NCBI RefSeq assembly: GCF_001598055.1 | Contig: NZ_CP014845.1 | Span: forward strand, 1,240,001-1,304,000 | Length of the DNA stretch: 64,000 nucleotides | DNA from: Cupriavidus nantongensis | GTDB lineage: Bacteria; Pseudomonadota; Gammaproteobacteria; Burkholderiales; Burkholderiaceae | Reading direction: 5' to 3' | In this document: positions 39,378 through 43,294 of the stretch, piece by piece | Numbering within the stretch: position 1 is the stretch's first letter | Layout: each line of letters opens with the position of its first letter | Made by a program: the position numbers and the translations under genes | Notes under the pieces: model-generated | Databases searched by the model: none | Told to the model about the DNA's origin: nothing | Seen by the model: the letters and a program-made list of their open reading frames with translations, nothing else

Positions 39378-40126
39378 GCCGATGGGTATTCTTGCGGGGA
39401 CTGACGCGCGAATCGCGCCACTGGGGAACGCTGCCGGCGCGCTGGGAAGCAGCCGGGCTGGGACGCCCGCTGTTGCCTGACCTGCCCGGCAACGGCGCGC
39501 TGTCGGCGCAGCCCGCGCCGTGGCGCGTGCGCGACATGGTAACGGCGGTGCGGCGCCAGCTGACTGCCTCCGGCATGCCCGGGCCGTACCGCGTGCTGGC
39601 CATGTCGCTGGGGGCGATGGCGGCGACCGAGTGGGCCAGTACATATCCGGAAGAAGTGAGCGGCCTGGTGCTGGTCAACACCAGCATGCGGCCTTTCTGC
39701 ACGCCGGCGCAGCGCCTGCGTCCGCGCAACTGGGGCAGGCTGCTGCGCGTGGCGCAGCGCTGGGGGGATCGCGCGTATTGCGAGCGGTCCATCCACGCCA
39801 TCACTTGCGCGCGCACCGACACGCAGGCCGCCGACCTTGCGCAGTGGCAGGCCATCGCGGCGGACGCACCGGTCAGCCGGCAGGCCGCGCTGGCGCAATT
39901 GCTGGCCGCCGCGCGCTACTGCGCGCCCGCGGAGCCGCCGCGCTGTCCGGTATTGCTGCTAGCCTCGGCGGCAGACCGCCTGGTCAACCCGGCCTGTTCG
40001 GCGCGCATTGCGCAGGCCTGGAACGTGCCCTTGCTGACGCACCACTGGGCCGGCCATGACCTGCCGCACGACGACCCGCAATGGGTATGCGATGCCGTCG
40101 CACGCGCCGGATCACGCTTCGGCTAG
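39374..40126 (+). CDS. Alpha/beta hydrolase
   Basis: 250 residues. The nucleophile elbow is AMSLGAMAA (Ser at about 78), the late Asp lies in SAADRLVNP and the His in GHDLPHDDP, making a complete catalytic triad. It overlaps the carboxypeptidase gene by 4 bp. Its substrate may be an ester or amide linked to the same pathway. It is convergent with the TetR gene; the original 3' end of that gene reaches into this one. Confidence 0.88.
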   Translation: MSRWVFLRGLTRESRHWGTLPARWEAAGLGRPLLPDLPGNGALSAQPAPWRVRDMVTAVRRQLTASGMPGPYRVLAMSLGAMAATEWASTYPEEVSGLVLVNTSMRPFCTPAQRLRPRNWGRLLRVAQRWGDRAYCERSIHAITCARTDTQAADLAQWQAIAADAPVSRQAALAQLLAAARYCAPAEPPRCPVLLLASAADRLVNPACSARIAQAWNVPLLTHHWAGHDLPHDDPQWVCDAVARAGSRFG

Positions 40127-40134
40127 TGCTTCTT

Positions 40135-40698
40135 CTACCGGCATGGCGCTGGCCAGCAGCGCCGCGGCGGCATCGACGCGTCCCACGTACCGAACAGCCG
40201 CGCGCTGATCAGCCCGTTCTGCAGCGCGCCGAATACCACCTGCGCCAGCTGTTGCGGCGGCAGCGAGAACGGCGCCGCGCCCCGGGCGGCAGCCTGTTCG
40301 AGCAGGCGCGCCAGCCATTCCTCGTTAAGGCGGGTGAAGTCCTGCATCGCGGCGCGCACGGTATCAGGCATGGCCAGCACGTCGGCCGACAGCATGCCCA
40401 CCACGCAGGCCTGGTCGGTGCAGGCGCCGTCGCGCAGTGGCTGCAGGTACTGCCGCGCCTGCTCTGCGCACGGCAGGCTGGTATCGATGGCTTGCAGCCG
40501 CGCCCGCTTGCGCGCGCTGTATTCGCGCACGGCTTCGAGCACCAGGTCGTCCTTGGACGGGAAGTAATAGTGGATGCTCGAGGTCTTGACGCCGACCAGT
40601 TCGGCCAGGTCGCGGTAGCTGAAGCCGTTGAACCCCCTGCGGCGTATCAGCACCAGCGCGTGTTCGACCAGTTGCTCGCGTACGGTTGGGGTATTCAT
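40135..40698 (-). CDS. TetR-family regulator, module 1 (C-terminus frameshifted)
   Basis: 187 residues in the present frame. The N-terminal helix-turn-helix (about 10-55) contains ALVLIRRRGFNGFSYRDL and GVKTSSIHYYFPSKDDL. It is a close paralogue of the protein at 41812-42378 over almost its whole length. After ARLFGTWD the frame changes: the paralogue reads DRVEAAADTL, and here the matching text RVDAAAALLASAMP lies one frame over and ends at 40112. Loss of one C near 40180 (GACCGCG to GACGCG) explains it. The last 20 or so residues are therefore replaced, which could affect dimerisation. AGGAG precedes the ATG. It probably shares a transcript with the 33-residue gene and the repeat protein gene. 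Confidence 0.85.
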   Translation of the reverse strand: MNTPTVREQLVEHALVLIRRRGFNGFSYRDLAELVGVKTSSIHYYFPSKDDLVLEAVREYSARKRARLQAIDTSLPCAEQARQYLQPLRDGACTDQACVVGMLSADVLAMPDTVRAAMQDFTRLNEEWLARLLEQAAARGAAPFSLPPQQLAQVVFGALQNGLISARLFGTWDASMPPRRCWPAPCR

Positions 40699-40730
40699 GG
40701 CATCGACTCCTCGGCTTGCCGCCGGGACAT

Positions 40731-40832
40731 TCAGGCCGGCAGCGTTTGTGCGATCAGCGTGATGAGGGACCCGCTTGCGAGGCAAAGCCCTACCCATCCG
40801 CCCAGGATCAGCGCAGTGTCACGCCAACGCAT
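40731..40832 (-). CDS. 33-residue membrane peptide, module 1
   Basis: Starts MRWRDTALILGGWVGLC and ends IAQTLPA: a charged N-terminus followed by one membrane helix with a GGW motif and a conserved Ser-Gly-Ser. AGGAG lies 7 bases before the ATG. The second module encodes a protein of the same length in which about half the residues are identical (pattern RDxxLxLGGWxxLCxxSGSxITxxAQxLP), so the frame is under protein-level selection. It lies between the repeat protein gene and the TetR gene. Confidence 0.75.
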   Translation of the reverse strand: MRWRDTALILGGWVGLCLASGSLITLIAQTLPA

Positions 40833-40906
40833 GATCAACTCCTGAAGCGGGGCCGCACCATGGCGGCCCGGTTGTTGTCGGTGGCCGGCGCCGGGCCGGC
40901 CGGTTT

Positions 40907-41413
40907 TCAGGCGATGGCGCCGTCGGTGTAGGGATCGACCTTGCCCACGCGCGCCCCGTCGGTGTACGGGTCAAAGCTGCGGGCCGGCTCGGCCGACACG
41001 CCGCTGCGGTCCAGGCCGGCTACCGTGCGGGCGCCGTCGGTGTACGGATCGGGCTTGCCCACGCGGGCGCCATCGGTGAACGGATCGGCCTTGCCGCTGC
41101 GGTAGTTGTAGCCGTAGCTGTCGGCCGGCACCGTGGCCGCGATCGTGCGCGCGCCGTCGGTGTACGGGTCGGGCTTGCCGACGCGTGCGCCTTCGGTGAA
41201 CGGATCGAACTTGCCGCTGCGCGCGCCCTCCGTGAACGGATCGAACTTGCCGGTGCGGGCACCGTCGGTAAAGGCATCGGCGTTGCCGACGCGATAGCTG
41301 TAGCCGTACTTGTCGCCGGCATTGGCGTTCACGCTGGCGGCATGCGCCACGCCGCCGACGAGCGCGGCAGCAAGGGTGGCGGCGGTGATCAGGGTCTTGG
41401 CGGTCTTGGTCAT
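40907..41413 (-). CDS. Secreted DPYTDGAR-repeat protein, module 1
   Basis: 168 residues. A classical signal peptide (MTKTAKTLITAATLAAAL, cleavage after AHA near 25) is followed by KYGYSYRVGNADAFTDGAR and then eight copies of an octapeptide close to DPYTDGAR, most spaced by VGK/TGK/SGK-type tripeptides. The repeat is acidic and aromatic, each copy pairing two Asp/Glu with an Arg. I do not recognise the family; metal or cation binding, or an extracytoplasmic sensing role, is conceivable. AGGAG precedes the start. Control is by the promoter/operator at 41614-41642. Confidence 0.82.
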   Translation of the reverse strand: MTKTAKTLITAATLAAALVGGVAHAASVNANAGDKYGYSYRVGNADAFTDGARTGKFDPFTEGARSGKFDPFTEGARVGKPDPYTDGARTIAATVPADSYGYNYRSGKADPFTDGARVGKPDPYTDGARTVAGLDRSGVSAEPARSFDPYTDGARVGKVDPYTDGAIA

Positions 41414-41494
41414 GATGGGCTCCTGGGGTGCGATGGTTCGGGATCGCGTCAAATTCGGTATCAGTGGCTGTTGCAGTCCTTCTTCCGATTCCGC

Positions 41495-41508
41495 ATCTAT
41501 CAGTAGAT
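41495..41508. promoter_or_regulatory. Second palindrome in the leader of repeat gene 1
   Basis: ATCTA-TCAG-TAGAT, 82 bp before the ATG of the repeat gene and in the same relative position as 43119-43132 in module 2. It is probably an additional operator for the module's TetR protein. Confidence 0.5.
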
Positions 41509-41613
41509 AGATAACCGGTTTCAAAAAAATGACCGCTTCCGGTCGTGCAATGGGACCGCCGTATGCCGCCTGGTCTTGCTTGTTGGTGGCGGTGCAGCGC
41601 TTCCATGGACTTG

Positions 41614-41642
41614 ATACTATCTACTACTAGGTAGAGAGTCAA
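41614..41642 (-). promoter_or_regulatory. Promoter with operator in its spacer, repeat gene 1
   Basis: Minus strand TTGACT (41637-41642), 17 bp, TAGTAT (41614-41619). The palindrome CTATCTAC-N6-GTAGAGAG (41617-41638, one mismatch) fills the space between the two boxes. The same arrangement is found in module 2, as expected for repression by a TetR dimer. Confidence 0.75.
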
Positions 41643-41654
41643 GGAAAAACATTT

Positions 41655-41669
41655 CTATCGATCCGATAG
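41655..41669. promoter_or_regulatory. Upstream palindrome, module 1
   Basis: CTATCG-ATC-CGATAG, 13 bp upstream of the -35 box; the equivalent in module 2 is at 43280-43294. Confidence 0.45.
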
Positions 41670-41811
41670 TGATTCTCCATGACGCGTTAAACCGTTGTTT
41701 CTGAAGCGATTTTCCGCAACCGGCCGGCCTTGCGGCAGGCAAATAAAAAAACCGCCATGCGGCTCACGCCACATGACGGCTTCAGACGCGCCACTGCAAT
41801 CGCGCGCAAAC

Positions 41812-42378
41812 TCAACCGGATACGGCAGCCATCAGCGTGTCGGCGGCCGCTTCAACGCGGTCCGAGGTGCCGAACAGGCGTGCCGCGATCAGCCCGCTCT
41901 GCAGCGAGCCGAATACCACCTGCGCCAGCCGCGCCGGCGGCACCGGGAACGGCGTGCTGCGATGCGGCTGGGCTCGCTCCAGCAGCCCGGCCAGCCACTG
42001 CTCGTTCAGCAGGAAGAAGCCCTGCAGCATCTTGTGCACGGATTCGGGCAGGCACAGCGTCTCGGTCGACAGCATGCCGCACAGGCAGATCTGGTCCGAG
42101 CCACAGCTGGCGCGGAATGGCGCCAGGTAGATCGCGGCCTGCTCGGTGACCGGCAAGGTCGTATCGATGGCGTTGATGCGCTCGGCCAGCCGGGCGCTGT
42201 ATTCCTTCACCGCTTCCTGGACCAGGTCTTCCTTGGTCGGAAAGTAATAGTGGATGCTGGAGGTCTTCACGCCCACCAACTCCGCCAGGTCGCGGTAGCT
42301 GAAGCCGTTGAAGCCGCGCCGCCGGATCAGGATCAGGGTGTGCTCGAGCAACTGCTCGCGTACGGATTGGGTTTTCAT
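41812..42378 (-). CDS. TetR-family regulator, module 2
   Basis: 188 residues, intact paralogue of the protein at 40135-40698, with the same helix-turn-helix (GFNGFSYRDLAELVGVKTSS, about 22-41) and ligand-domain Cys pairs (residues near 92-102: SCGSDQICLCG). The Cys-rich stretch might sense a thiol-reactive or metal signal; this is speculative. It has its own promoter at 42385-42413 whose predicted start point falls at or next to the ATG, and no Shine-Dalgarno sequence is visible. An operator lies inside that promoter, so it should repress itself. Confidence 0.9.
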   Translation of the reverse strand: MKTQSVREQLLEHTLILIRRRGFNGFSYRDLAELVGVKTSSIHYYFPTKEDLVQEAVKEYSARLAERINAIDTTLPVTEQAAIYLAPFRASCGSDQICLCGMLSTETLCLPESVHKMLQGFFLLNEQWLAGLLERAQPHRSTPFPVPPARLAQVVFGSLQSGLIAARLFGTSDRVEAAADTLMAAVSG

Positions 42379-42384
42379 GCAAGC

Positions 42385-42413
42385 AGTTTATCTACGCGAA
42401 GATAGACGCTCAA
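42385..42413 (-). promoter_or_regulatory. Promoter with operator in its spacer, TetR gene 2
   Basis: Minus strand TTGAGC (42408-42413), 17 bp, TAAACT (42385-42390). The palindrome TATCT-N6-AGATA (42389-42404) lies within it and shares its half-site with the operators before the repeat genes. Confidence 0.65.
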
Positions 42414-42420
42414 GTTGAAA

Positions 42421-42457
42421 TGCCCCAAGGCTGGGGTAATTCCCTAGCCTCGGGGCA
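42421..42457 (-). terminator. Possible terminator between small gene 2 and TetR gene 2
   Basis: Minus strand stem TGCCCCGAGGCT with AGCCTTGGGGCA, 13-base loop, followed by TTTC. It would end the repeat-protein/33-residue transcript before the TetR promoter, consistent with separate transcription. Confidence 0.5.
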
Positions 42458-42475
42458 CAGTGCACTACATGGGCG

Positions 42476-42577
42476 TTAGCCAGGCAGGACCTGCGCGGCG
42501 AAGGTAATCATCGAGCCACTCGTCACGCAAAGTACCAGCCATCCGCCAAGCAACAGGATGCTGTCACGCAAACTCAT
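42476..42577 (-). CDS. 33-residue membrane peptide, module 2
   Basis: Starts MSLRDSILLLGGWLVLC and ends AAQVLPG; same length and layout as the peptide at 40731-40832, with GGW, Cys, SGS and the AQxLP tail conserved although most nucleotides of the variable positions differ. GGAG lies 7 bases before the ATG. It follows repeat gene 2 by 72 bp on the same strand. It is too short for standard gene calling. Confidence 0.75.
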   Translation of the reverse strand: MSLRDSILLLGGWLVLCVTSGSMITFAAQVLPG

Positions 42578-42649
42578 GATGGACTCCATCGGATGGCGGC
42601 CACGGACCGCCATCGTAAGTGTTGGGCCGCCGGCCGGTGCCGGCAGCAA

Positions 42650-43036
42650 TCAGGCCAGGGCGCCGTCGGTATAGGGGTCAACCTTGCCGACGCGCGCACC
42701 GTCGGTGTACGGGTCGAAGCTGCGGGCCGGCTCGGCCGAGACGCCGGTGCGGTCCAGGCCCGCCACGGTGCGGAAGCCATCCGTGTACGGGTCGGTCTTG
42801 CCGACGCGTGCGCCCTCGGTGAACGGATCGAACTTGCCGCTGCGCGCGCCTTCCGTGAACGGGTCGAACTTGCCGGTGCGGGCACCGTCGGTAAACGCAT
42901 CGGCGTTGCCGACGCGGTAGCTGTAGCCGTACTTGTCGCCGGCGTTGGCGTTCACGCTGGCGGCCTGCGCCGCTCCGCCGACGAGCGCGGCGGCAAGGGT
43001 GGCGGCGGTGATCAGGGTCTTGGCGGTCTTGGTCAT
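42650..43036 (-). CDS. Secreted DPYTDGAR-repeat protein, module 2
   Basis: 128 residues. It is nearly identical to the module 1 protein over the signal peptide and the first four repeats, but lacks a segment of about 40 residues including a second YGYNYRSG motif, leaving six copies of the octapeptide. Signal cleavage is expected after AQA. The pattern shows gain or loss of whole repeat units between paralogues. AGGAG precedes the ATG. Confidence 0.82.
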   Translation of the reverse strand: MTKTAKTLITAATLAAALVGGAAQAASVNANAGDKYGYSYRVGNADAFTDGARTGKFDPFTEGARSGKFDPFTEGARVGKTDPYTDGFRTVAGLDRTGVSAEPARSFDPYTDGARVGKVDPYTDGALA

Positions 43037-43118
43037 GATGGGCTCCTGGGGTGCGATCGTCGGGATCGCGTGAAATTCGTTGTCGGTGGCGATTCGGCAG
43101 GTCGCTTTCCAGACTCGC

Positions 43119-43132
43119 ATCTACTAGTAGAT
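43119..43132. promoter_or_regulatory. Second palindrome in the leader of repeat gene 2
   Basis: ATCTACT-AGTAGAT, a perfect 14-bp palindrome, 83 bp before the ATG; partner of 41495-41508. Confidence 0.55.
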
Positions 43133-43238
43133 AGATTGCCGGGCCTGAAAAAATGACCGCTCAGGTCATGCAATGGAATCGCCACATTTTTCCGTGCCTT
43201 CTTGCTTTGGTTGGCAGTGCAGCGGTGCCATGGACTGA

Positions 43239-43267
43239 ATGCTATCTACTGATAGGTAGATAGTCAA
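43239..43267 (-). promoter_or_regulatory. Promoter with operator in its spacer, repeat gene 2
   Basis: Minus strand TTGACT (43262-43267), 17 bp, TAGCAT (43239-43244). The palindrome CTATCTAC-N6-GTAGATAG (43242-43263, perfect 8-bp arms) fills the core promoter exactly. Confidence 0.78.
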
Positions 43268-43279
43268 GGAAAAAGATTT

Positions 43280-43294
43280 CTATCGAAGGGATAG
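43280..43294. promoter_or_regulatory. Upstream palindrome, module 2
   Basis: CTATC-N5-GATAG, 12 bp beyond the -35 box, equivalent to 41655-41669. Sequence similarity of the two modules ends about here. Confidence 0.4.

Follow-up and report, generated by a model that had tools for sequence, protein, structure and literature searches.

The window analysed here, a 64,000-nucleotide stretch of the Cupriavidus nantongensis genome (contig NZ_CP014845.1, positions 1,240,001 to 1,304,000), lies on the second contig of a three-contig, 7.1-Mb genome and contains two tandem three-gene units on the minus strand (window positions 43294-40112). Each unit encodes a predicted exported repeat protein of the CopQ-like family, a predicted membrane peptide of 33 residues and a TetR-family regulator, and carries palindromes of the form ATCTAY-N6-RTAGAT that are predicted operators. 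We consider it probable, if well short of certain, that in this module a thiol-stress repressor, itself autoregulated, controls a CopQ-like operon for envelope protection. The parts, the operator, their conservation and their co-occurrence are read from the sequence; operator binding, thiol sensing and protection are what we infer from them. The upstream copy is called unit 2 or B (repeat protein P0001, peptide P0005, regulator P0003 or TetR-B) and the downstream copy unit 1 or A (P0002, P0006 and P0004 or TetR-A).

We propose the following mechanism. The TetR protein, which is related to AltR and NemR, would bind ATCTAY-N6-RTAGAT at O1 in the promoter spacer, at O2 in the leader and, in unit 2, at O3 before tetR, and in this bound state would keep the operon silent. 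Modification of Cys98 at a helix start of the ligand domain, together with Cys100 where it is present, by thiophilic metals (Cd, Hg, Pb) or by chemicals that react with thiols would free TetR from its operators. The cell would then make the disordered CopQ-like periplasmic repeat protein and its 33-residue inner-membrane partner, which may jointly protect the envelope, and newly made repressor would reset the switch. By analogy, the module would work like the thiol-stress control of AltR and NemR, fitted to a CopQ-like protein and a newly seen membrane peptide. If this is true, CopQ-like proteins gain a dedicated regulator at several loci, a readily testable operator and a small membrane partner, and the metal stress of Cupriavidus is linked to the AltR/NemR thiol-sensing repressors. 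The CopQ-like family is already known; new here are the peptide gene, the module palindromes, the AltR-type operator core found with a NemR-aligned cysteine, and the placement of O1 in the promoter spacer with a leader hairpin.

The duplicated module and its operators

The initial annotation had described a tandemly duplicated three-gene module with the same order, strand and spacing in both copies. Both units are indeed present at that location, and their order and strand agree; the spacing does not, as the gap between peptide and tetR is 32 nucleotides (nt) in unit 1 versus 97 nt in unit 2, with an extra operator inside the unit 2 gap. The similarity claimed for the promoters is borne out, since the three longest aligned DNA blocks, promoter region included, show 74-82% identity from one unit to the other, which is far beyond chance. 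The start given for the module, 40112, is the stop of another frame, and the unit 1 tetR has its own stop at 40135.

In unit 2, the repeat protein of 128 amino acids (aa) lies at 42650-43036, the hydrophobic peptide at 42476-42577 and TetR-B, of 188 aa with Cys92, Cys98, Cys100 and Cys109, at 41812-42378. In unit 1, the repeat protein of 168 aa lies at 40907-41413, the peptide at 40731-40832 and TetR-A at 40135-40698, all six genes being on the minus strand. The final residues of TetR-A are frame-changed (40112-40200) compared with its relatives, seven printed examples of which run intact to 189-195 aa; the frame change may be a real mutation or a sequencing error. The TetR_N DNA-binding domain scores over its cut-off in both copies.

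A pattern scan located five operators, which carry no strand assignment. In unit 2, O1 (43244-43261) is exact and fills the -35/-10 spacer, O2 (43119-43136) is exact and lies 82 nt before the copQ-like start, and O3 (42390-42407), with one mismatch, stands directly upstream of tetR. In unit 1, O1 (41619-41636), also in the promoter spacer, has one mismatch, and O2 (41495-41512) is exact. Across all 7.1 Mb of the genome there are three exact matches, each of which falls within the module; eight more sites have one mismatch, and two of these are inside it. At up to two mismatches, 168 places stand against 52 for the backward-pattern control; thus, only exact and near-exact sites are meaningful.

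The operator is also conserved across this metal-tolerant genus. Its exact form is present in 58 of 60 Cupriavidus genomes, with 2 to 9 copies each, versus 3 of 60 for the backward pattern, and the two genomes that do not have it are assemblies 54% and 78% complete. We scanned individual TetR loci from 2.5 kb upstream to 3.1 kb downstream of the TetR start, allowing one mismatch and counting overlapping shifted sites separately. At least one site was found at 27/28 fetched Cupriavidus loci, at 32/33 loci of other Burkholderiales (93 sites versus 1 in the control) and at 9/18 loci from more distant taxa (22 versus 0).

A characterized repressor has a closely similar operator. As reported in the parts of PMC13178969 cited here, AltR of Pantoea ananatis recognizes the inverted repeat CAATCTAC-N6-GTAGATTG, and mutation of this repeat abolishes repression. 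Its core, ATCTAC-N6-GTAGAT, is common to the module palindromes, for which we use the consensus ATCTAY-N6-RTAGAT, and two exact sites occur in the cluster of the AltR homologue of P. agglomerans. The nemR region of E. coli has no matching operator above chance.

A TetR tree of 61 rows places the A copies in one group and the B copies in another, at one change apiece (support 97/94 and 97/98), and some single rows without group assignment fall inside them; the nearest relatives of TetR-B are from C. alkaliphilus, C. neocaledonicus and Cupriavidus sp. WGlv3. This is consistent, as far as sequence relationships go, with one old tandem arrangement, which is kept in 25/60 genus genomes, while many others have two such regulators apart. 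The age of the two copies bears on the idea that the unit has no particular function and is an inert side product of shifting copy numbers within a family rich in repeats. In its favour, the genome has many CopQ-like paralogues with differing numbers of repeats; however, both copies are old, the operators and TetR are found in 58/60 and 59/60 genus genomes, respectively, and the peptide is under purifying selection (see below), so that we regard it as highly improbable.

The CopQ-like protein and its membrane peptide

The initial annotation rightly counted 8 and 6 octapeptide copies in the repeat proteins of units 1 and 2, and knew no named family for them. Database names and the TDG-type repeats known from the C. 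metallidurans CH34 genome paper (PMC2864759, used here in excerpt) assign them to one. A protein search with the repeat protein gave 455 relatives at E<=1e-3; among the best 120 of these, 13 are named CopQ and 2 "Copper resistance prot...", the remainder being hypothetical, otherwise named or unnamed. The motif DxxT[DE]G is present 8 and 6 times with the spacer AGLDRxGVSAxPAR, in keeping with the CopQ repeat motif, and the hydrophobic N-terminus ends in AxA. By homology and repeat motif, the repeat protein is a member of the CopQ-like proteins, which are small periplasmic proteins of Cupriavidus and Ralstonia. The earlier interpretation stands as a conserved, regulated envelope stress module and falls in leaving the repeat protein without a named family.

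In the excerpted genome paper, CopQ, CzcJ and MmrQ are proteins that have a signal sequence and repeats of the motif RDXXTDG, whose leading R is absent from both window copies. The paper adds mmmQ, mmtQ and mmsQ/mmsQ1 as metal-induced CH34 genes with similar domains, and its BLAST searches confined the CopQ family to Cupriavidus and Ralstonia (PMC2864759). Two further members, PrsQ1 and PrsQ2, are reported to be necessary for silver resistance in the mutant NA4S (PMC7380067, likewise in excerpt). The window proteins resemble CopQ, CzcJ, MmrQ, MmmQ, MmtQ, MmsQ, PrsQ1 and PrsQ2 in a putative signal-type N-terminus, the DxxT[DE]G repeats and the fixed spacers, and metal induction is reported for family members in CH34 (PMC2864759). 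They differ in control: prsQ2 is under the two-component system AgrRS (PMC7380067), whereas the window units have a dedicated TetR and a 33-aa peptide, neither of which we found described for the CopQ-like family in the literature searched.

Alternatively, the repeat protein itself might directly sequester metal in the periplasm. The repeats are Asp-rich, CopQ-like proteins are reported to be metal-induced, and two of them are reported to be needed for silver resistance (PMC2864759, PMC7380067). However, mature P0001 and P0002 contain zero Cys, His or Met; direct metal binding therefore looks unlikely. Soft metals, moreover, seldom bind carboxylates strongly. The AlphaFold model consists of a single helix at residues 4-26 with the rest unstructured at low confidence, the mean predicted local distance difference test (pLDDT) score being 51, and a folded structure was rejected on this score. 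Considering these points together, we judge sequestration improbable and prefer envelope protection by the repeat protein with its peptide. Matches of the repeat protein to PT-VENN, rodlin and other Pfam or NCBIfam models were weak, under cut-off, and were rejected.

The second gene of each unit is supported by a coding test and by co-occurrence. The ratio of nonsynonymous to synonymous substitution (dN/dS) of the peptide is ~0.14 for 16 copy-B sequences, ~0.24 for 15 copy-A sequences and ~0.15 for 6 sequences from other loci; because these values are so low (0.14-0.24), we take the peptide to be a real gene. The other two forward frames contain stops in the 20 printed of 36 distinct peptide sequences. 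The peptide is present in 59/60 genus genomes (146 matches), and at 104/122 genus TetR matches it lies 35-181 nt upstream on the same strand. All 59 TetR-bearing genomes of the 60 are represented, each with at least one such pair, so the co-occurrence that the initial annotation named as a check holds for peptide and regulator across the genus.

The remaining 42 of the 146 peptide matches do not adjoin a TetR. We fetched 20 of these, and 18 lie directly behind a CopQ-like open reading frame (ORF) with gaps of 34-147 nt, one (L114) being frame-broken; the operator is found at 7 of the 20 loci and is absent from 13. Conversely, among the 18 TetR matches for which no peptide was detected, 14 were examined and 13 carry CopQ-like repeats upstream. 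Since the TetR-less peptides mostly follow CopQ-like ORFs directly, copQ and the peptide are, by gene order, a unit in its own right with or without the TetR regulator. The 33-aa peptide is thus newly recognized from its sequence as a real gene that usually stands directly behind a CopQ-like gene; in the literature searched, we found neither a name for it nor a link between CopQ and a TetR regulator. Pairs of a CopQ-like gene and a 33-aa peptide that have no TetR operator were seen at L106, L107, L109, L110, L112-L116, L122 and L123. Other CopQ-like loci exist in the window genome as well, 15 of 17 fetched places showing at least two repeats.

Proposed thiol sensing and the loci of C. metallidurans

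In the regulator, Cys98 is invariant in 19/19 representatives from Cupriavidus, Collimonas, Caballeronia and others, and a looser motif finds the cysteine in 74/79 loci, the misses being four Chloroflexi and L076, whose cysteine lies in a different context. In the alignment, the P0003 counterpart of E. coli NemR Cys106 is Cys98, and that of Cys100 in the AltR homologue is Cys100; thus, the NemR-type Cys98 is in both window copies and the AltR-type Cys100 in TetR-B only. The TetR model is confident (mean pLDDT 92.6). NemR (4yze) ranks 10 among solved structures, with a template modelling (TM) score by query of 0.75-0.80 over its four chains; 3on4, 2g7s, PA2196 and 3bru are among those ranked ahead of it.

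Two known systems can be compared with the module. First, AltR shares the operator core ATCTAC-N6-GTAGAT, a cysteine at the same helix start and the autoregulation proposed for the module. Over 171 columns, P0003 and the P. agglomerans homologue have 34% identity; in AltR, Cys100 is essential for derepression by thiosulfinates (PMC13178969). The target differs, being the copQ-peptide operon here and the alt genes in AltR, and so does the invariant cysteine, as Cys98 stands two residues before the Cys100 column aligned with AltR Cys100. A thiosulfinate-tolerance cluster was looked for at the window module and not found, the adjoining genes examined being hydrolases and an M14 peptidase; because there is no alt cluster, we do not file the module regulator as AltR. 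Second, NemR shares the fold (4yze) and the alignment of its Cys106 with Cys98, and differs in its low identity (21%) and in its neighbours nemA and gloA, which are not found beside the window regulators.

Many TetR proteins sense a ligand in a pocket without cysteine chemistry. The regulator might accordingly sense one organic ligand, such as an aldehyde, quinone, aromatic acid or ester, the metal response of its relatives being indirect. Neighbours of the detoxification type at loci outside Cupriavidus would fit this, namely an alpha/beta hydrolase at 13/22 loci, OsmC at 2/22, a reductase of the short-chain dehydrogenase/reductase (SDR) type and, by eye, a pump of the resistance-nodulation-division (RND) type. 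So would the best NCBIfam model, the acrylate regulator AcuR (NF051457); at 37.5 and 37.8 bits versus a curated cut-off of 247 bits, however, this identity was rejected. A specific ligand is disfavoured by the invariance of Cys98 in 19/19 representatives, by the resemblance to NemR and AltR, and by the induction with Cd, Hg and Pb that is reported for the probable CH34 orthologue (PMC2864759); we consider it a serious but rather unlikely alternative to thiol sensing.

This orthologue was sought on NC_007974.2, the second replicon of C. metallidurans CH34, a genome with two TetR copies of the module type. The gene tags were inferred from neighbours and anchors. The TetR at 1571520 is flanked by a CopQ-like gene and exodeoxyribonuclease III; since mmsQ is Rmet_4908 and xthA3 is Rmet_4910 (PMC2864759), this CopQ-like gene is taken as mmsQ. 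The TetR at 771541 is syntenic with the window module, its flanking hydrolase and M14-type protein being 51% and 81% identical, and mmtQ (Rmet_4187) is the most likely identity of its CopQ-like gene, at 770.8 kb. The anchors were chrA (Rmet_3865) at 408 kb, sqhC (Rmet_4148) at 723-725 kb and mmmQ (Rmet_4461) at 1058.9 kb; chrA and sqhC have two matches each on the replicon, and the one fitting a linear tag order was taken. The position of mmtQ is interpolated at ~760-766 kb, and no other CopQ-like match (E<=1) occurs between 458.7 and 856 kb of the replicon.

According to the excerpted genome paper, mmtQ shows high induction with Cd, Hg and Pb, moderate induction with Zn and none with Cu or Ni, and metal induction is reported for mmsQ as well (PMC2864759). 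Such a list would be expected of a thiol sensor, though the paper gives it in one statement. At 2348.6 kb, another CopQ-like frame (240/242 identical) fits mmsQ1; this mmsQ1-like locus has operators and a variant peptide, and neither of the genome's two module-type TetR copies. A related species retains a recognizable peptide (L144).

Several observations weigh against a thiol-sensing repressor with a two-part envelope shield. Regarding the sensor, position 100 of TetR-A is Val, and the P. agglomerans AltR homologue has Pro instead of Cys in the Cys98 column. AltR itself is reported, in the parts of the paper cited, to be unresponsive to N-ethylmaleimide (NEM), diamide and H2O2 (PMC13178969); relatives of AltR therefore need not be general thiol sensors. 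Regarding CH34, the assignment of mmtQ rests on interpolation between tagged genes, and the metal induction is given as "data not shown" (PMC2864759). Regarding the peptide, it looks decayed by eye at the probable CH34 mmtQ locus (L128, 1440-1760), it is absent at seven Cupriavidus copQ-tetR loci (L029, L030, L032-L034, L036, L037), and no small hydrophobic ORF occurs within 420 nt downstream at 15/15 other CopQ-like loci of the window genome. Finally, the window genome has no exact operator beyond the module.

The leader and loci outside Cupriavidus

The promoter spacer is a classical site for repression. A promoter scan of the region found two sites, versus a shuffle mean of 0.7, both with O1 in the spacer between TTGACT and TAGYAT: the promoter-like site P1 of unit 2 (43239-43267, minus strand; TTGACT - 17 nt - TAGCAT) and that of unit 1 (41614-41642, minus strand; TTGACT - 17 nt - TAGTAT). 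The hexamer TTG[AC][CT]T stands directly before O1 in 29/29 leaders printed, which had been picked for having two sites and not for the hexamer.

Between O1 and O2 lies a hairpin resembling an intrinsic terminator, at 43153-43169 in unit 2 and 41531-41544 in unit 1 (both minus strand). For a wider comparison we used 54 distinct leaders, 53 from Cupriavidus and one (L046) from Caballeronia, each preselected to have a hexamer of the TTG[AC] type ahead of O1 and, 110-146 nt further downstream, a second site; because of the hexamer preselection, their count is no test of the promoter. In 49 of the 54, a stem of at least 4 pairs is followed by a T-run starting 16-18 nt before O2, versus 0/54 on the antisense strand, a mean of 1.17/54 (maximum 4) in dinucleotide shuffles and 31/1620 random segments of the same loci; the leaders without it are L028, L046, L111, L117 and L126. 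The order of promoter, operator, terminator-like hairpin and second operator is thus fixed in 49/54 two-operator leaders (43153-43267 and 41531-41642 in the window). As there are 33 distinct stem-loops, the hairpin has been kept while its sequence changed. Because the stems vary and cannot be lined up column by column, the case for a terminator rests on the individual stems.

From its sequence, this arrangement suggests either a short, terminated RNA or a leader in which termination is conditional. We tentatively suggest that, besides the two-part CopQ-peptide envelope shield, P1 may give a TetR-controlled regulatory small RNA or a conditionally terminated leader, a possibility to which we give less than even weight. 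Other readings of the leader were tried and rejected. A consensus fold failed, RNAalifold on a MAFFT alignment of 27 leaders giving 0 pairs, and a conserved leader peptide from a CATGG motif was dismissed by eye, the frames differing between species. Fixed helical phasing of the two operators was rejected as well; because their spacing varies from 115 to 146 nt, we do not claim looping. A known RNA family was likewise rejected for the leader, as the segment 40000-43500 had 0 Rfam matches at E<=1. A further terminator-like hairpin lies 3' of unit 2 (41748-41783, minus strand).

Outside Cupriavidus, the same regulator and operator adjoin other targets, which suggests a regulator that predates its CopQ-like target. 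Repeat proteins of the DUF4148 type stand beside the regulator and operator at 7/7 Collimonas loci and 2/2 Achromobacter/Schauerella loci. These loci are alike in having the same TetR and operator by small secreted repeat proteins and differ in that the proteins are DUF4148 and not CopQ-like; one repressor-operator pair would thus have been reused for unrelated small secreted repeat proteins. Among Caballeronia, Paraburkholderia and Burkholderia loci, the alpha/beta hydrolase found at 13/22 is a secreted one, OsmC being the neighbour at 2/22, and in distant taxa an SDR reductase lies beside the regulator, with the RND-type pump seen by eye in two loci.

Individual loci illustrate this range. 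The secreted DUF4148 proteins of Collimonas, Achromobacter and Schauerella, a family unrelated to CopQ, are seen at L035 (4985-5398) and L049 (7199-7558 and 7629-7958). In Paraburkholderia and Caballeronia, the genes for OsmC and a secreted Abhydrolase_3 protein have the same operator ahead of them (L064, 6668-8274; L046, 6690-7898). In a Labrenzia relative (L073, 5088-10911), the TetR gene is divergent from an SDR reductase gene, an apparent RND efflux operon follows, and the operators lie in the intergenic gap.

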